Assembly (NCBI RefSeq): GCF_023169885.1 | Contig: NZ_AP025516.1 | Location: 4,009,501 to 4,073,500 of the forward strand | From: Desulfofustis limnaeus | GTDB taxonomy: Bacteria > Desulfobacterota > Desulfobulbia > Desulfobulbales > Desulfocapsaceae | Direction: 5' to 3' | DNA length: 64,000 nt | Shown: positions 24,628 through 38,324 of the stretch, one piece after another | How the letters are laid out: each line of letters opens with the position of its first letter | Position numbering within the stretch: position 1 is the stretch's first letter | Program-made: the position numbers and the translations under genes | The notes under the pieces: model-generated | Databases searched by the model: none | Told to the model about the DNA's origin: nothing | Seen by the model: the letters and a program-made list of their open reading frames with translations, nothing else

Positions 24628-25791
24628 ATGTCAGACAGAGAGCCGGTAACGCTGAACCATCGAGCCAGTTTGGCTGTCGCTGAGTGTATCCGTGACGGTG
24701 ATGACCTGCTTCGCCTGCGGCTGGCCGGTGACTGGCTGGTCGGCTGCATACCGCGGTCCCACCGACGGCTGCTGCACGACCTGGCGGTTAAACCGCCGAC
24801 CCGGTTGATCCTGTGCGCAGCTGACGTGGGCCGGTGGGACAGCGGTCTCATCACTTATGTGCTCAAGGTGCGCAAGGTCTGCGAGCAACAGGGGGTTGGC
24901 TTTACCACCGAGGGGTTGGCGGCGGGCGCGCAACGGCTGCTGCGTCTGGCTGATGTGGCGATGGAACAGCACGCCGCTGCGGGACGTGTCCTGCGGGTAC
25001 CGTTTCTGGAACGGCTTGGTGGCCAGGCCTTGGCGTGCTGGCATCATGGGGTGGAGATGGTCGGTTTTCTCGGTGAGGTGAGTGTGGCCTTCGTTCGGCT
25101 GCTGTCCGGGCGGGCGCGCTGCCGGTCATCCGATGTGCTGACGGTGATGCTGAACTGCGGTGCGCGAGCCTTGCCGATCGTCTCGCTGATCAGCGTACTG
25201 GTGGGCTTGATTCTGGCTTTTGTCGGCGCGGTACAGCTCTCCTTGTTCGGTGCCCAGATCTACGTGGCCAGTCTGGTGGGTATTGCCGTTGTCCGGGTCA
25301 TGGGTGCGGTGATGGCCGGCATCATCATGGCTGGTAGAACCGGAGCGGCTTTTGCCGCCGAACTGGGCACCATGCAGGTCAACGAGGAAATAGACGCCCT
25401 GCGGACGTTGGGAATTGATCCGATCGAGTTCCTGGTACTGCCCCGGGTGCTCGGGATGGTGCTGATGATGCCGCTGCTGTGCCTGTATGCCGATATGATG
25501 GGAATTCTAGGCGGGCTGCTGGTCGGCGTGTTCATGCTCGATCTCAACGTTATGGAATATCTGGAGATGACCAAGAAGGCGGTAAAGCTCAGCTATTTCT
25601 GGATCGGGTTGTTCCACAGCGCTGTGTTCGGGGTCCTGGTCGCTTTTGCCGGTTGCCTGCGGGGGATGCAATGCGGTCGCAGTGCCTCGGCGGTCGGCGC
25701 GGCCGCCACTTCGGCAGTGGTCACCGGCATAGTCAGCATCATTGCGGCAACTGCGGTTATCACCGTGATCTGCAACGTACTTGGCATTTAA
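24628..25791 (+). CDS. mlaE: MlaE-type ABC transporter permease with N-terminal STAS domain
   Basis: A 387-residue protein. Residues 1-115 form a STAS-like domain (LRLRLAGDWLVGCIP, then the LILCAADVGRWDSG strand-loop). Residues 150-387 are the MlaE permease with five to six helices and the family segment GRTGAAFAAELGTMQVNEEIDALRTLGIDP near 240. In two-component Mla systems STAS is a separate subunit (MlaB); here it is fused, as in many deltaproteobacteria. It moves phospholipids between the inner and outer membranes. It is the first gene of the operon. Confidence 0.93.
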   Translation: MSDREPVTLNHRASLAVAECIRDGDDLLRLRLAGDWLVGCIPRSHRRLLHDLAVKPPTRLILCAADVGRWDSGLITYVLKVRKVCEQQGVGFTTEGLAAGAQRLLRLADVAMEQHAAAGRVLRVPFLERLGGQALACWHHGVEMVGFLGEVSVAFVRLLSGRARCRSSDVLTVMLNCGARALPIVSLISVLVGLILAFVGAVQLSLFGAQIYVASLVGIAVVRVMGAVMAGIIMAGRTGAAFAAELGTMQVNEEIDALRTLGIDPIEFLVLPRVLGMVLMMPLLCLYADMMGILGGLLVGVFMLDLNVMEYLEMTKKAVKLSYFWIGLFHSAVFGVLVAFAGCLRGMQCGRSASAVGAAATSAVVTGIVSIIAATAVITVICNVLGI

Positions 25792-25794
25792 ACC

Positions 25795-26601
25795 ATGACC
25801 GGTAGCGCTTCTCCGACCGCTCCGGCCATCGAAGTCCAAGGCCTGACCATGGCTTACGGCGATCGGGTAATACAAAGAGATTTGAGCTTTACCGTCGCCC
25901 AGGGAGATGTCTTTGTCATCATGGGTGGAAGTGGTTGCGGCAAGAGCACGTTGTTGCGTCATCTCGTCGGGTTACATGAGCCGGTGTCCGGAATTGTACG
26001 GTATCGCGGAGTGGATTTCTGGCATTTGAGCGAAACGCAGCGGCAAAAGTTGATGCGTCGATTCGGCATCCTCTACCAGAGCGGTGCCCTGTGGAGTTCC
26101 ATGACGGTCAAGGAGAACGTGGCCCTGCCCCTGGAGCACTATACCGACCTGCCAGCGGGCGATATCGATGAACTGGTTTCCTATAAGCTGGCCTTGGTCG
26201 GTTTGGCCGGGTTTGGCAATTTTTATCCAAGCGAGTTGAGTGGTGGCATGCGCAAGCGAGCTGGTCTGGCCAGAGCCATGGCGCTTGACCCGGACATCCT
26301 CTATTTTGACGAACCGTCGGCCGGGCTTGATCCGCTCAGCAGCCGCCAGCTGGATGATTTGATCATTGAGTTGCGCGACAGTCTCGGCACCACCATTGTC
26401 GTGGTCACGCACGAACTTCCAAGTATTTTCGCCATTGGCACCAATTCGGTCTTTCTCGACGCCGACAGCCGGACCATGATCGCCGCCGGTGATCCACGAC
26501 GGCTGAAAGACGAATGCGAAAACCCGTTGGTCCGTCGTTTCCTCAACAGAGGAGACACCACGATGGCGGAAAATAACCTGAGTCAAGGGGGGATAGCCTG
26601 A
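25795..26601 (+). CDS. mlaF: MlaF-type ABC transporter ATPase
   Basis: A 268-residue ABC ATPase with Walker A GGSGCGKST near residue 44, signature LSGGMRKRAGLARAMA near 147, Walker B ILYFDEPSAGLDP near 170, and an H-loop in VVTHELPS. It energises lipid transport by the MlaE permease. It begins 3 bp after mlaE, and its last base is the first base of the mlaD start codon. Confidence 0.95.
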   Translation: MTGSASPTAPAIEVQGLTMAYGDRVIQRDLSFTVAQGDVFVIMGGSGCGKSTLLRHLVGLHEPVSGIVRYRGVDFWHLSETQRQKLMRRFGILYQSGALWSSMTVKENVALPLEHYTDLPAGDIDELVSYKLALVGLAGFGNFYPSELSGGMRKRAGLARAMALDPDILYFDEPSAGLDPLSSRQLDDLIIELRDSLGTTIVVVTHELPSIFAIGTNSVFLDADSRTMIAAGDPRRLKDECENPLVRRFLNRGDTTMAENNLSQGGIA

Positions 26602-27596
26602 TGCGAGGCAAGACCGGCAAGACGCTCATCGGGCTATTCGTTTTGGGCGCCTTGGCGCTGGTGGTGGCTGGTGTCGTCATGTTCGGTTCCGGCAAGCTCT
26701 TTGTTCCGTCGAAAAAGTATGTCATGTATTTTGACGGTTCGGTCAAGGGGTTGTCGGTCGGGGCCCCGGTTGTCTTTCGTGGCGTAAAGGTGGGATCGGT
26801 GATCGACATCATTTTGCAGGGTAATCTGCACGACATGCTGTTTACCGTGCCGGTGATCGTCGAGGTCGATCTGAGCCGTTTTCAGATTGTCGGTGGCGAG
26901 AGTGTGTCCGACGATCTTGACAAGGCCTTGATCGAACGTGGTCTGCGCGCTCAATTACAGCCGCAGAGTCTGGTAACGGGACAGCTGGTGATTGATGTCG
27001 ATTTTCGTCCCGGTCGGCCCATGCGTGTGGCGAGCGATGCCACCGGTCTGCCGCAGATCCCGACCATCCCGTCCACCGCCGAGGAACTGGCGCAAAAATT
27101 GGAAGAGCTGCCGCTGCAGCAGCTGGTGAATCGGTTGAACGAGTTGGTGGGGGGCCTCGAGCGCCTGGCCAACTCGCCCGATATGCAAAACGTCCCGCAG
27201 GCGTTGAATCAGGCTATCAGCGAAATGCATCAGGTGTTTGCGACGATCGATCGGGAAGTGGCGTCGTTGGCGGCGGAGGCGAGAGATGTCCTCGTGGCCG
27301 TGACCGAGACCGTGGACCGCGTGGATCGGACCTTGTCCTTCCAGGAAGGGGCACCGGCCGAGATGGCTGACAATCTCAACCAGTTTTTGAACGAGGCTCG
27401 CCAATCCTTGGCGGTCTTCGATCAGACCGTGGAATCCGTCCGCTCGACCCTCGGTGACGAGCGTTCTGCCTACGAATTGCGTCATGCCTTGCGCGAATTG
27501 CGTCGGACCGCTCAGGCGCTCGGGGTGTTGGCGGATTCCCTCGATCGCCAACCAGACATATTGCTGTGGGGCAAACCAGCCGAGGAGGCGCCATGA
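26601..27596 (+). CDS. mlaD: MCE-domain lipid-binding protein MlaD
   Basis: A 331-residue protein with one N-terminal membrane helix (residues 9-28), a single MCE domain (about 37-125, including GLSVGAPVVFRGVKVGSV), and a long C-terminal helical coiled-coil region (about 150-315). The helical tail resembles the needle-forming regions of longer MCE proteins and may reach toward the outer membrane through the downstream lipoprotein. It is longer than E. coli MlaD (about 180 residues). Confidence 0.92.
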   Translation: MRGKTGKTLIGLFVLGALALVVAGVVMFGSGKLFVPSKKYVMYFDGSVKGLSVGAPVVFRGVKVGSVIDIILQGNLHDMLFTVPVIVEVDLSRFQIVGGESVSDDLDKALIERGLRAQLQPQSLVTGQLVIDVDFRPGRPMRVASDATGLPQIPTIPSTAEELAQKLEELPLQQLVNRLNELVGGLERLANSPDMQNVPQALNQAISEMHQVFATIDREVASLAAEARDVLVAVTETVDRVDRTLSFQEGAPAEMADNLNQFLNEARQSLAVFDQTVESVRSTLGDERSAYELRHALRELRRTAQALGVLADSLDRQPDILLWGKPAEEAP

Positions 27597-28243
27597 ATGT
27601 GAAGTTGCGGGTCGTGTGGTGGATCACCGTACTGGCGATCCTGACCATCTGTGCCGGCTGCAGTAGCAGGCCACCGACACACTATTACGCGCTGTCGGTG
27701 CTGGCTGACGATTCCACAATGCCACTGAGCCCGCGGGATCCTGAACGGCGGCAGGTGCTCGGGGTGGGCCCGATCGCACTGCCGGCCTACCTCGATCATC
27801 CGTCGATTACCATACGCAGCGACGAGACGACACTGTTTCGCTCCGATCTGCATCGCTGGGGCGGGTCCCTGCATGACGAGGTGAGCCGGGTGCTGGTGGA
27901 AAATCTTGACCGTTTGTTGCCGGAGGAGCGTTTCATTGTCCTGCCTTGGATGGAAACCGCGGTCAGCGACTTCCGCGTGCAGATCTCCATCAGCCGCTTT
28001 GAGGGTGTGGCTGAACAAGGGGTGGTGCTGCATGGATCGTGGCTCCTGTTTGGCGGGCGGAGCTCCACTCCACTTGCCGCGGATACGGTGGAAGTGCGCG
28101 AAGAGATTGAAGGCGACGGTTATCGTGAGCTGGTGTTGGCCATGAGCAGGTGTCTGGTCGCCATGGGCGGCAGCATCGCCGGTGCGATCATCGATCGTCA
28201 GGCGGTCTACACCACTGAGCGGGTGACGCAAGAGGCACCCTGA
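27593..28243 (+). CDS. ABC-type transport auxiliary lipoprotein (PqiC/DUF330-like)
   Basis: A 216-residue lipoprotein. The signal segment ends in a lipobox-like ICAGCSS near residue 21. A PqiC/LptE-like domain follows, with THYYALSVL and VGPIALPAYLDHPSI. PqiC-type lipoproteins anchor MCE-protein complexes at the outer membrane. The start at ATG 27593 has GAGGAGG upstream and overlaps the mlaD stop; an earlier frame start lacks a site. It extends the Mla-like system across the periplasm. Confidence 0.88.
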   Translation: MNVKLRVVWWITVLAILTICAGCSSRPPTHYYALSVLADDSTMPLSPRDPERRQVLGVGPIALPAYLDHPSITIRSDETTLFRSDLHRWGGSLHDEVSRVLVENLDRLLPEERFIVLPWMETAVSDFRVQISISRFEGVAEQGVVLHGSWLLFGGRSSTPLAADTVEVREEIEGDGYRELVLAMSRCLVAMGGSIAGAIIDRQAVYTTERVTQEAP

Positions 28244-28991: not shown

Positions 28992-30308
28992 CTAAGCGCG
29001 ATCGCCGTCTTTTCCAGCGTCACGTTCGAAGATGAAGAGGTCGCCCGGGATCCAGGTTCCGTTTTCCTTTCTGATATCATGCGTTTGGTGTCCAACTTTT
29101 TGGAATCCGTGACGAGCGGCACAACCGATCAAATACGCGGCCGTGTGGGCAAATCGGCCCGAGGGGCGCAGACGGTAGCCCAACGATGTTTCATCGAATA
29201 ACCTTTCGATGGAGCAGGCAAGGACGGCGTGACGGCAAGCCGTTCGTGACAAGCCGGCACATATTCTCTCCAGTTCACCCAGATAAATGAAGACATCGGC
29301 GGCGAGGAACAGATCGTAGCGAGCCGCGGTGCGATCAAGAAAGGCGCCGAGCTCATCCTGGATTAGATGGTGATAGTGGCCTTTGCGGGCGGCCACCTCG
29401 AGCATTCGCGGGGAAAGGTCGATGCCGGTGAGCTGGTGTACTTCATTGTACAGCGCGGCACCGACCAGGCCGGTGCCGCAGCCCAGATCGATACCGCTGG
29501 CGAACTTCCGGTCGGGATAATGGGCCAGGATCATCTCGGCGAGGCGCTGGGGAACGGTATAGCCCAGGTTGGAGCCAATGTGTCGTTCGAAGCGGTACGC
29601 GTATTTGTCGAACGTTTCGGTTACATAACCCGGCGGGGCACTTTCCCGGACTGAGCCGTCGAGGGCGGCGAGCATGTACTGGGCTGATTCGTGGTTGGGC
29701 TGCAGGGCCAGCAGCCGTTGCAGAGTCTGTCTGGCCATTTCCAGGTCGCCCCGGCAGTTATAGAGGCCGGAGAGATTGAACAGAAGGTCTGAGTTGGTCG
29801 GGTCCTTTTGCAGGCTCTGTTCGAAAGCGGCGGCGGCGCCCTGAAAGTCGCCGCTGTCGCTGAGGATAACCCCGAGGTTGTTCAGGGCCAAGGGATTGTC
29901 CGGTTCGACGGTCAGGGCGTGCCGGATCAGCGCCAGCCCTCGCTCACTCTGGCCCAGCAGGTGGTATAGTTTGCCCAGGTTGTTCAACGCCTTGGCGTGA
30001 TGGGGGGCGAGAGCCAAGGCCTGCTCGTAGGTCGCTGCCGCTTCGTCGACCCGTGACAACGATTCATAAACCGCGCCGAGATTGACCAACTGGTTGGGGT
30101 CGCCTGGTGCTTGTCGCACCGCTTTCAGGCAGAAGCCAAGAGCATCGTCCGCTCGGCCGAGATCCCGGTAAACAAGGCCGACATTACTCAGCAGGTTGAC
30201 GTTGTCGGGCAGAACGTCGAGGATGAGGAGGTATCTGTTCAGGGCTTCCTGGTATTTTCCCACCTGGTGCAATTGCACCGCTTCGGTAAAAACTGACTGC
30301 AAATCCAT
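28992..30308 (-). CDS. TPR-repeat protein with C-terminal SAM methyltransferase domain
   Basis: A 438-residue protein. Residues 1-215 hold about six tetratricopeptide repeats (units such as NPLALNNLGVILSDSGDFQGAAAAFEQSL). Residues 225-435 form a class I methyltransferase with the motif I loop DLGCGTGLVGAAL near 275. TPR-methyltransferase fusions of this type are widespread in proteobacteria; substrates are unknown but often lie in the envelope or are proteins. It converges with the mla operon and is divergent from the glycosyltransferase fusion. Confidence 0.88.
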   Translation of the reverse strand: MDLQSVFTEAVQLHQVGKYQEALNRYLLILDVLPDNVNLLSNVGLVYRDLGRADDALGFCLKAVRQAPGDPNQLVNLGAVYESLSRVDEAAATYEQALALAPHHAKALNNLGKLYHLLGQSERGLALIRHALTVEPDNPLALNNLGVILSDSGDFQGAAAAFEQSLQKDPTNSDLLFNLSGLYNCRGDLEMARQTLQRLLALQPNHESAQYMLAALDGSVRESAPPGYVTETFDKYAYRFERHIGSNLGYTVPQRLAEMILAHYPDRKFASGIDLGCGTGLVGAALYNEVHQLTGIDLSPRMLEVAARKGHYHHLIQDELGAFLDRTAARYDLFLAADVFIYLGELERICAGLSRTACRHAVLACSIERLFDETSLGYRLRPSGRFAHTAAYLIGCAARHGFQKVGHQTHDIRKENGTWIPGDLFIFERDAGKDGDRA

Positions 30309-30582
30309 CGTCTCTTGTTATCAATCGGTTCGCGCATAAGGGGTTTTCACGGTAATCGGTCAAGTACGACAGTGTACGATATGCAAAGTGTGCAGTCAAC
30401 CATAGGGCGCATAAGGAGCCGGGGATGCCTGTCGCAAGAAGGTGCATATCCCTTCGATCGAGCCCCATCCGACCGGGACGGGAGCTTACTTTCATATCGG
30501 CGCAAAGCGTGCTATCGTTGATCTACGACGCTGTTTTGAAAAGGATCGATCGAGCCCACACCTCATGCGAGAGGAACCGCTG

Positions 30583-32802
30583 ATGCGTCGCTTTGGCCGT
30601 CTGAAACTGCTTTTTTATCTCAATTTGTTGATCGTCTTTCTGCTGGTCTTTTACAAGCTGTATCTCACCATGTTCGAAGCGGACTACGAAGGGGTTCACG
30701 CCGACCAGGTCGAACGAATCGAGTCGGCTCTGCAGGGCCGTTCCTCATACGCCTTCGCGGTAGTTGGCAACATCAACAATTCGGTGGGGTTGTTCGAGCG
30801 AAAGATTGTTCCGTTACTGAACCGAAGCGGCCTTGATTTTGTCGTTTCGGCAGGCAACGCCGTCAGTGGCGGCGGCGAGGATAAGTACCGGGCGCTGCAC
30901 CGAACGCTGGAGCGCCTCCGTCTGCCTTACGTGTTGACCTATGGAAAAAACGAGCACAGCGCATTTGGCGGTTTCCGCTACTACGACCATTACGGCCCGT
31001 ATGTCTTTGCCTTTTCCGCCGGCAACAGCCGCTTCATCTTTCTCGACAGTTCCGGCAAGACACCGTGGAAGTGGCAGCTGCGCTGGCTGGATGAAGAACT
31101 GGCGGTGGCTCCCCGGGAGCATGTCTTTCTCTTCGTCGGTCAGGCCGTACATCCGGTGGAACTCGGGGACGGCCTGCTTGGTTTGCGAGATGATTATCTG
31201 CTCGATGATGATTTCCGGCTGCCGCTCAGCAGATTGATCGAGCAGGCTGGCGTCGATGCGGTTTTCTCGGCCGATTTACCGCTCTTCTTCCGGCAGCGAT
31301 TCGGCCAGACCAGCCATGTGGTGACCGGTGGGGCCGGGGGGCTGGTTTTCAACAACGAGCATAGCTACTATCACTATCTGGAGGTACGTGTTGCCGGAGG
31401 TGAGGTCTCCATTCGTCCGGTGCGTCTGGGTATCGGGCAAAACCGGTTTTTTCGCACCGTTGAGAGTGTGTGGTTGGTGGTCCACTCGATTTTTTATGTG
31501 GGGTACCTCAACTATCTGATCGTGCTTGGGTTGCTGTCGCTGACTGCCGTCTGGCTCTATTACGCCGTCTTTACCGAGCACAATTATTACCCGGATTTTG
31601 ACCTTCCTACCGATCTGGCCCTGGAAAAACCGATTCGTGTGGCCATGTTCACCAATAATTTTCTACCCTACATCGGCGGGGTACCCATTTCCATCGATCG
31701 TTTACGGCGCAGCCTGCAGGCCCTCGGCCATCGGGTTCTGGTCTTCGCCCCGAGCTACGCTGGACAGCGCCAGGACCCGGAGGTGGTCAGACTGCCGCGT
31801 TTGCTGTCCCGTATAGGTGGCAAGGAGCTGGTCATGGCCAATATCTTTTCGCTGCGGCTGTTTCGCCAGTTCCGGCTGTTTCAACCGGACGTGCTGCATA
31901 TCCACCACCCCTTCTGGATGGGATCCATGGGGCGTTTCCTGGGGAGGCGCTTCGGGGTGCCGGTGGTCTATACCTACCACACCCGTTTTGAACACTACTC
32001 GTATGCCGTGCCGCTGCCCGAGCTCTTTTTTAAAAATTATCTGGCCCACAAACTGGTGCGACGGATCGGCAATCGCTGTGACGCAGTGGTTGTGCCCACC
32101 GAAGGGGCGGAACACTACCTGCGGATGATTGGGGTGAAGAGCACCGTCTTCGTGATCCCGACCGGGATCGAATGCGATCTCTACCGGCAGATCCCCGAAG
32201 CGGACCTGGACGCCCTGCGGCGACGCTACGATCTCGGTGCGGCGCGGATTTTGCTGAGCGTCTCCCGACTGAGTAGGGAAAAGAATATCGACTTCATGCT
32301 GGAGGGAGTACGTGAGCTCGTTCGTCGGTGTAAGACCCCGTTTCGCTTGTTGATTGTCGGTGACGGCCCGGAACGGAACCGCCTGGAGCAGAAGATCGCC
32401 CAGTTGCAGTTGCAAACGCTTGTTCTGTTGACCGGAGCGGTTTCGCCCGACCAGATCGCCGCCTATTATCGATTGGCCGATATCTTCGTTTTTGCGTCTC
32501 GCACCGAGACGCAGGGGATGGTCGTCCTGGAGGCGATGGCGAGCGGATTACCGGTGGTGGCCGTGCGCGCCAGCGGCATCGACGATTTTGTGAAAAACGG
32601 TGTCAACGGGTTCAAGACCGGTTTGCGCCATGACCAGTGGGCTGAACGTATTGCCGAGATACTGGGTGACCAGCAGCTCTATCGGCGTCTGTCGGAACAG
32701 GCCGAGACCATGGCCGGTGACCATGACGTCGCGCGGTTCGGTGAAAAAATGACGAGGGTCTACGCCCATGTGCTCGCCCAGCGTCAGGCTGCTGAACCGT
32801 GA
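30583..32802 (+). CDS. Metallophosphoesterase-like/GT4 glycosyltransferase membrane fusion
   Basis: A 739-residue protein. Residues 7-28 are a membrane helix. Residues 45-285 form a calcineurin-like phosphoesterase-type domain. Residues 303-334 form one or two further helices. Residues 345-739 are a GT4 glycosyltransferase, with acceptor-side NNFLPYIGGVPISI near 352 and the donor-binding ASRTETQGMVVLEAMASG near 638. In the phosphoesterase part the usual metal-ligand motifs are altered: SAGNAVSGG where GDxxxxG is expected, YGKNEH for GNHD, and VGQAVHP for the THHPP-like motif. Catalysis there is probably lost. The fold should face the periplasm if the GT domain is cytoplasmic. I chose ATG 30583 for its AGAGGA site; ATG 30565 lacks one. 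It is likely a lipid or glycolipid glycosyltransferase. Confidence 0.85.
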   Translation: MRRFGRLKLLFYLNLLIVFLLVFYKLYLTMFEADYEGVHADQVERIESALQGRSSYAFAVVGNINNSVGLFERKIVPLLNRSGLDFVVSAGNAVSGGGEDKYRALHRTLERLRLPYVLTYGKNEHSAFGGFRYYDHYGPYVFAFSAGNSRFIFLDSSGKTPWKWQLRWLDEELAVAPREHVFLFVGQAVHPVELGDGLLGLRDDYLLDDDFRLPLSRLIEQAGVDAVFSADLPLFFRQRFGQTSHVVTGGAGGLVFNNEHSYYHYLEVRVAGGEVSIRPVRLGIGQNRFFRTVESVWLVVHSIFYVGYLNYLIVLGLLSLTAVWLYYAVFTEHNYYPDFDLPTDLALEKPIRVAMFTNNFLPYIGGVPISIDRLRRSLQALGHRVLVFAPSYAGQRQDPEVVRLPRLLSRIGGKELVMANIFSLRLFRQFRLFQPDVLHIHHPFWMGSMGRFLGRRFGVPVVYTYHTRFEHYSYAVPLPELFFKNYLAHKLVRRIGNRCDAVVVPTEGAEHYLRMIGVKSTVFVIPTGIECDLYRQIPEADLDALRRRYDLGAARILLSVSRLSREKNIDFMLEGVRELVRRCKTPFRLLIVGDGPERNRLEQKIAQLQLQTLVLLTGAVSPDQIAAYYRLADIFVFASRTETQGMVVLEAMASGLPVVAVRASGIDDFVKNGVNGFKTGLRHDQWAERIAEILGDQQLYRRLSEQAETMAGDHDVARFGEKMTRVYAHVLAQRQAAEP

Positions 32803-37907: not shown

Positions 37908-38324
37908 TCAACGGGCCAACGCCATGACGGTCAGATAGCGCAGTGATTTGCCCAGACCGACAAGGATCAGAAACAGCCACAAACGAACCCGCATGACGCC
38001 GGCGACCAGAGTCAGCACGTCACCGCCGAGCGGCAGCCAGGCGAAAAGCAGCGACCAGACCCCGTAACGCTGGAACCAATGCTGGGCTTTGTCGATCTGC
38101 TCAGTGGTGAAATAAAACCAGGGACGCTCCCGGAAATGCAGGAGATAACGGCCCAATCCCCAGTTGACGGCACTCCCCACGGTGTTGCCGAGGGTGGCTG
38201 CCAGCAGCAGCGGCCCTGCCGGGCTGTCGCCTTGGAGCAGGGCGTAGAGCATGACCTCCGAAGAGATGGGCAGGATCGTCGCGGCAAGCAGTGAGGTGGT
38301 AAAGAGGGCGAGGTAAACGGACAT
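37908..38324 (-). CDS. YqaA-like small DedA/SNARE-associated membrane protein
   Basis: A 138-residue membrane protein of the DedA superfamily. The conserved segments are LPISSEVMLYALL near residue 19 and GNTVGSAVNWGLGRYL near 46, with the re-entrant hairpin typical of the family and an FAWLPLGGDVLTLVAGVMRV segment near 95. The long YqaA form is similar in length. Roles in lipid flipping or membrane homeostasis are proposed for the superfamily. AAGGA precedes the ATG. Confidence 0.85.
   Translation of the reverse strand: MSVYLALFTTSLLAATILPISSEVMLYALLQGDSPAGPLLLAATLGNTVGSAVNWGLGRYLLHFRERPWFYFTTEQIDKAQHWFQRYGVWSLLFAWLPLGGDVLTLVAGVMRVRLWLFLILVGLGKSLRYLTVMALAR

Follow-up and report, generated by a model that had tools for sequence, protein, structure and literature searches.

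The window, a stretch of 64,000 nucleotides of the Desulfofustis limnaeus genome, contains a gene whose product joins a metallophosphoesterase-like domain to a GT4 glycosyltransferase. The main features of the gene and its surroundings are as follows.

24628-28243, + strand: MlaE-MlaF-MlaD/PqiB-like-PqiC-like phospholipid transport genes, about 2.3 kb before the fusion and on the same strand
28992-30308, − strand: TPR protein with a C-terminal methyltransferase domain (domain search)
30570..30575, + strand: ribosome-binding-like AGAGGA, 7 bases 5' of the ATG at 30583 (read from the sequence)
30583..32802, + strand: coding sequence of the fusion protein, 739 aa, stop included (open frame and translation)
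30598..30675, + strand: N-terminal transmembrane helix, residues 6-31 (hydropathy; a helix in the model)
30679..31455, + strand: pseudo-metallophosphoesterase (MPE) domain, residues 33-291 (profile 9.2e-7; model Z 21.7)
31444..31581, + strand: second membrane segment, residues 288-333, with a helix at 288-305 and a transmembrane helix at 308-330 (hydropathy and model)
31630..32787, + strand: GT4 glycosyltransferase domain, residues 350-735 (PF00534, PF13439 and a structure match to MshA)
32506..32532, + strand: E642-x7-E650, the GT4 signature, kept (alignment; the columns are nearly invariant)
37908-38324, − strand: short VTT/DedA-type protein, 138 aa (PF09335, 1.4e-14), the nearest VTT gene, 5.1 kb from the fusion

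We considered a longer frame that opens with GTG at 30442 and preferred the ATG at 30583, which fits both the ribosome-binding-like site and the starts of the relatives. Hydropathy gives two hydrophobic segments, and the structure model places helices at residues 6-31 and 308-330. The layout that the first-pass annotation had claimed, an MPE-like domain between membrane helices and then a GT4 enzyme, is borne out, with exact coordinates and 739 residues free of stops. The predicted topology is bitopic, with the MPE domain outside the inner membrane and GT4 inside. The fusion is flanked by the TPR-methyltransferase gene and by a gene of 1231 residues that we took for sbcC (a PF00149/SbcD_C gene comes after it). 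Both neighbors are on the opposite strand, so the fusion is a transcription unit of its own in this genome.

The same parts in the same order recur in 19 further distinct loci, which is more than chance would produce. A domain-profile search covered 395 genomes from the phylum of the window and 369 from the class of Marinobacter; the fusion is carried by six of the former and seven of the latter, counting the two genomes from which the search started. Named loci come from a Desulfobacteraceae MAG, Lacimicrobium, Halomonas/Vreelandella, Ectothiorhodospira, Marinobacter, and a gammaproteobacterial MAG. The total is 20 distinct fusions from the window's phylum and the Gammaproteobacteria (all counts of 20 leave out L052, which is identical to L013). 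The doubt that the fusion might be missing from relatives holds only nearby: it is absent from the same-genus species and from three sampled family members, but 19 other distinct relatives, which span two phyla or more, do carry it.

It is scarcely conceivable that the gene is a misassembly or two adjoining genes read as one, as the window genome is complete and in one contig and 18 other distinct copies are unbroken or interrupted by an assembly gap only. What speaks for such an artefact is a frame break within the gene of Marinobacter similis (L014); nothing comparable is seen for the window. In that complete genome, the fusion is split into two frames of 444 and 288 aa (L014:5971-8165), by either decay or a sequencing error.

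The C-terminal domain is clearly a GT4 glycosyltransferase. It matches PF00534 (2.9e-39) and PF13439 (4.3e-32), it has a GT-B fold that matches MshA (Z 38.9, 3.3 Å, 365 residues aligned), and it keeps E-x7-E, which we take to be the GT4 catalytic signature. The best NCBIfam profile is NF049988, alpha-monoglucosyl-DAG synthase (3.3e-54 over residues 352-734), but its score of 184.8 bits falls far short of the cut-off, which is 400. GpgS, the GlcNAc-PG synthase (NF053787), gives 3.2e-31 and 108.5 bits (110.4 in the genome-level search) against a cut-off of 480. Judging by the titles of their structures, GT4 relatives use inositol phosphate, malate, or phosphatidylinositol as acceptors. This variety, together with the scores far below both cut-offs, means that homology does not fix the acceptor. 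Four gammaproteobacterial genomes with the fusion (G765, G763, G669, and G558) also encode a GpgS-like protein elsewhere, above or just below the cut-off, so the product of the fusion is probably not GlcNAc-PG there. Still, the profile matches, along with the flippase and GlcNAc-PG-deacetylase neighbors described below, favor the proposed "lipid-type" glycosyl transfer as the probable activity. GT4 domains are presumably joined to other partners as well: by eye, L041 (364 onwards) and L042 (403 onwards) have an N-terminal PHP-looking region, and in L030 (1465 onwards) GT4 is followed by what looks like a DUF374-type lipid acyltransferase region.

When the N-terminal region of the window's fusion protein was searched singly against Pfam, NCBIfam, and the PDB, there was no useful match and no MPE domain. 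As Pfam misses the domain in this protein, its recognition in the first-pass annotation went beyond standard annotation. A profile built from 14 relatives did match purple acid phosphatases in the PDB (9.2e-7), and in that alignment the phosphatase His-x-His metal loop lies opposite a loop of the fusion family without histidine. PF00149 is matched by 6 of 14 family members singly (best 5e-6), the window protein not among them. Because a structure search with the whole protein returned the GT4 domain only, we folded and searched the MPE domain alone (AlphaFold2, 10 sequences, mean pLDDT 78.5, pTM 0.84; residues 93-106, beside the former GNHE motif, are of low confidence). The best structure match of this model is GpdQ (Z 21.7, 2.7 Å, 219 aligned), followed by Rv0805, purple acid phosphatases (Z 19.5-18.3), and GAP50 (Z 18.8). 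The closest free-standing relative matches the domain profile at 4.7e-55 and PF00149 at 4.2e-12. Fold and descent thus confirm that the N-terminal domain belongs to the metallophosphoesterase superfamily, whose mark is a calcineurin-like alpha/beta sandwich.

An active MPE has a dinuclear metal site with the ligands D, D, N, H, and H-x-H. When aligned with intact relatives, the window domain keeps none of these six ligands, and so it lacks the residues that mark an active metallophosphoesterase. The altered sites, all from the alignment, are these:

30766..30783, + strand: GNINNS, residues 62-67; the first metal Asp is replaced by Asn
30853..30858, + strand: G91-N92; the second metal Asp is replaced by Asn, as in 20 of 20 fusions
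30943..30954, + strand: GKNE, residues 121-124, in place of GNHE/GNHD; the Glu is invariant and the metal Asn is lost
31135..31155, + strand: VGQAVHP, residues 185-191, in place of MHVPL; the metal His is replaced by Gly
31267..31281, + strand: SADLP, residues 229-233, in place of SHIHG; both metal His are lost

The three altered motifs that had been read directly from the translation, AGNAVSGG (90-97), GKNEH (121-125), and VGQAVHP, are all present as quoted. The loss extends to the whole family: 17 of the 20 distinct fusions keep no ligand and three keep one, so that no fused orthologue has a full metal site. The first Asp is kept in 0 of 19 (18 Asn, 1 Glu; L021 has an assembly gap in this column), while the second Asp, the Asn of GNHE, the first His, and the first His of HxH are each kept in 0 of 20, and the second His of HxH is kept in three. 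By comparison, all six ligands are present in 16 of 24 free-standing relatives (L085-L108, the 24 top-ranking matches with loci in the phylum search). Yet 12 polar residues are invariant among 13 fusion members (N66, S67, N92, Y102, E124, Y134, D155, T160, W164, Q165, W168, and T248), whereas none of these members' histidines within residues 31-292 is invariant. The metal center is thus gone, yet several of the residues that surrounded it do not vary. The proposal that this domain has a role in binding rather than in catalysis is therefore well supported in its second half, by the loss of ligands across the fusions; a binding role is what we infer from it.

Could the domain still be an enzyme that uses other residues or a single metal? 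In favor of this, E124, D155, T160, and a TGGxGG loop are invariant and dN/dS is low (see below). However, both metal Asp, the Asn of GNHE, and the first two metal His are gone in 19 of 19 or 20 of 20 fusions, and there is no invariant His to take over within residues 31-292, so we consider residual catalysis very improbable.

Separately, five of the free-standing relatives (L091, L094, L096, L101, and L102) keep only 3, 3, 1, 2, and 3 of the six ligands, respectively. Since these proteins are not fused, loss of the metal center seems to be recurrent in this family of membrane-anchored MPEs.

We compared the selection on the two domains. In five close pairs, dN/dS was 0.135, 0.150, 0.165, 0.138, and 0.068 for the dead domain and 0.185, 0.152, 0.195, 0.102, and 0.069 for GT4 (for the fifth pair, dS is over 1.4 and the ratio is rough). 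On average, two fusions are 48% identical in the dead domain and 50% identical in GT4 (L014 and L021 left out), and 33 of 236 positions in the dead domain are invariant across the 13 members. By these measures the dead MPE domain is under purifying selection similar to that on GT4 and is not decaying. The domain might instead be a passive relic that merely lengthens the membrane anchor, and the decayed metal sites in the five unfused proteins just mentioned would fit with that. Purifying selection like that on GT4 in all five pairs, and the number of invariant positions, make a relic quite improbable, if slightly less so than residual catalysis. Rather, preservation of a former phosphatase domain suggests that it is a binding or control part.

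The fusion has a single origin, as trees of both halves show from their sequences: 19 fusions form one clade in the MPE tree (support 100/100; L021 left out because of its assembly gap) and in the GT4 tree (support 96/99; L014 left out because of its frame break). (L014 was also left out of structure alignment A2, and L021 of alignment A3.) Both trees group the window with a gammaproteobacterium (L009), L007, and L017. As L007 is a Desulfobacteraceae MAG, and as the genus-mate and three family members of the window genome do not have the fusion, horizontal spread is likely. The composition of the gene gives no sign of recently acquired foreign DNA (GC content of 57.5% versus 57.6% for the window), so the acquisition was probably not very recent. 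The same-genus genome (G395) lacks the fusion and has VTT and MFS genes after sbcC; a homolog of the window's short VTT protein adjoins sbcC there. This locus is rearranged, so gain and loss of the fusion look alike.

What kind of protein was joined to GT4? The nearest free-standing relatives are membrane-anchored MPEs, several of them with hydrophobic segments on both sides (by eye). Across the 16 of their loci that we read, the neighbors include PAP2, PMT/PMT_2, GT2, LPG_synthase_TM, polysaccharide deacetylase, and EptA, although several loci have no such neighbors (for example, L110 and L112). In L089:715-2406 and L092:733-2433, the MPE domain retains all six ligands and has a VTT/DedA domain (found by Pfam in L092) fused to it; these are possibly lipid-phosphate phosphatases joined to a flippase. 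Also, L128:1083-3005 (− strand) is a single open frame with PMT_2 and a Metallophos stretch; beside it lie two ORFs, one similar to LPG_synthase_TM proteins and one GT2-like. Given these neighbors and the fusions to VTT and PMT_2, the MPE family seems to be tied to envelope-lipid chemistry, and it seems that the fusion took up a copy from this family and silenced it. We rejected a cluster of separate genes for an intact MPE and a GT4 (L109) as the ancestor, as its GT4 is far from the fused clade (branch of 3.6); it is at most a parallel association.

The genes next to the fusion also point to lipids. LPG_synthase_TM (PF03706, TIGR00374) is flippase-like. In 12 of 20 loci, a gene for such a protein lies directly upstream on the same strand, and its end touches or runs into the beginning of the fusion gene (L007, L008, L009, L012, L013, L014, L015, L017, L018, L053, L054, and L055; called with a profile of seven of them, and with Pfam for L008, L009, L012, L015, L017, and L018). 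In L010, L011, L056, and L057, a VTT/DedA gene adjoins the fusion, either divergently or convergently. In L126 (the same locus as L020), the order is the fusion, a GlcNAc-PG deacetylase (NF053788, 338 bits, above the cut-off of 280), a downstream LPG_synthase_TM (NF053789, 272 bits, just below the cut-off of 320), and a VTT-PAP2-LssY protein. Altogether, one or the other type of gene abuts the fusion in 17 of 20 loci. Because the window genome has so few of these genes (two LPG_synthase_TM and three VTT), this would hardly be chance, with the caveat that related loci are not independent. The exceptions are the window, L019, and L021, where neither an LPG_synthase_TM nor a VTT gene adjoins the fusion. 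In the window genome, the LPG_synthase_TM genes lie elsewhere, and in L021 it is a GlcNAc-PG deacetylase that adjoins the fusion instead. This deacetylase (NF053788) was found in 2 of 20 genomes searched, not including that of the window, and it adjoins the fusion in both; neither of these two genomes has a GpgS above cut-off. So, all three parts of a GpgSDF-type operon are together in L126, where the fusion stands in the place of GpgS, while the window has no such operon. The arrangement in L126 is our best clue to function.

How does the fusion compare with systems that have been studied? We know of no MPE domain in alpha-monoglucosyldiacylglycerol synthases (NF049988). PlcP (an MPE phospholipase) and Agt (a GT4-type glycolipid synthase) are separate active enzymes in one membrane, and a pair of this kind would be a conceivable origin of the fusion. 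GpdQ and the purple acid phosphatases share the fold of the N-terminal domain, but the window protein is without all six of their metal ligands. A literature search of open PMC papers found no description of an MPE-GT4 fusion. In Pseudomonas aeruginosa, mutants and expression in E. coli showed that gpgSDF makes GlcNAc-PG and GlcN-PG (PMC12713373). That operon brings together genes for a GT4 synthase, a deacetylase, and an AglD2/YbhN-type flippase, and L126 has the same gpgS-D-F order with the fusion as its first gene. GpgS is described as cytoplasmic and without transmembrane helices (PMC12713373), whereas the GT4 of the fusion is tethered to a predicted periplasmic pseudo-MPE; and unlike gpgSDF, the window locus is without D and without an adjacent F. 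HexSDF of Clostridioides difficile follows a similar logic of synthase, deacetylase, and MprF-like flippase to make a glycolipid (PMC10128005). It differs in being Gram-positive and in that its synthase is annotated as monogalactosyl-DAG synthase (PMC10128005), and it is not known to us to include a pseudo-MPE. Finally, MprF joins lipid aminoacylation and a flippase in one unit (PMC11980842). There the partner of the synthase is the flippase; in the fusion its partner is a dead phosphatase, and flipping is left to a protein of its own. The fusion probably works like the GpgS/HexS-type synthases, although by curated scores it does not belong to the GpgS or alMGS equivalogs.

On balance, we favor, with some reserve, the view that the fusion is a membrane-anchored GT4 glycolipid synthase with a periplasmic, non-catalytic pseudo-MPE that most likely binds a headgroup or docks a flippase and so couples synthesis to translocation or to the level of product. 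By homology, the cytoplasmic GT4 would use a nucleotide sugar to glycosylate a membrane lipid, either a phospholipid (such as phosphatidylglycerol) or diacylglycerol. Judging from the neighbors, the product would then be carried to the outer leaflet, usually by the adjacent LPG_synthase_TM (GpgF/HexF/MprF-flippase-like) or DedA/VTT protein. The pseudo-MPE, held by the membrane helices of the GT4 itself, may bind a phosphate-bearing or glycosylated headgroup or dock the flippase, and this binding or docking could be what couples synthesis to translocation or product level. The change of both metal Asp to Asn removes charge and metal while the pocket is kept. A binding protein would be expected to show this, although it is an argument rather than a test.

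A first variation is that the enzyme is the same but that the pseudo-MPE is a scaffold on which the flippase or some other envelope protein docks, without any binding of lipid. We view this as a minority possibility, though a serious one. The adjacency in 17 of 20 loci fits with it, as do the VTT fusions of intact MPE domains from the same family (L089 and L092). In Plasmodium, the MPE-fold protein GAP50 is used as a membrane anchor (PMC8949495); earlier work reports acid phosphatase activity, so GAP50 is not a clean precedent for a pseudoenzyme. On the other hand, the window locus has no such partner adjoining, and N66, S67, N92, and E124, which are invariant and lie in the loops of the old active-site motifs, would suit a kept pocket over a new surface. 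(To our knowledge, GAP50 has no glycosyltransferase.)

Second, the GT4 might act on a polyprenyl-phosphate-linked sugar, LPS, or a polysaccharide rather than on bulk membrane lipid. The free-standing MPEs have PMT/PMT_2, GT2, PAP2, EptA, and polysaccharide deacetylase as neighbors, which are typical of lipid-linked sugar and lipid A modification, and the Ectothiorhodospira locus (L012/L013) has further GT4-like genes a few kb downstream. Also, DedA proteins are reported as undecaprenyl-phosphate flippases (PMC10127716 and PMC12893004). But most of the loci that we read show no gene cluster for LPS or polysaccharide near the fusion, and the GlcNAc-PG deacetylase that adjoins the fusion in two genomes indicates a phospholipid. 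We think that such an acceptor is unlikely.

Within our preferred reading of a glycolipid synthase with a binding or docking domain, a more specific and tentative idea is a built-in sensor: the dead phosphatase would read a headgroup in the outer leaflet and feed back on the cytoplasmic GT4. Candidate targets are its own flipped product, a phosphate-bearing lipid, or lipid A. If so, glycolipid synthesis would be tuned to what has arrived in the outer leaflet.

How bacteria match the synthesis of modified lipids at the inner leaflet with their arrival at the outer leaflet is poorly understood. The fusion family unites both sides of the membrane in one polypeptide, as predicted, and its outer part is a strictly conserved former enzyme. 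It would also extend glycolipid modules of the GpgSDF/HexSDF type to Desulfobacteraceae-like genomes and to marine and halophilic gammaproteobacteria. More broadly, the fusion leads to an entire phosphoesterase family, membrane-anchored and found in envelope-lipid loci, in which several members have lost the metal site too.
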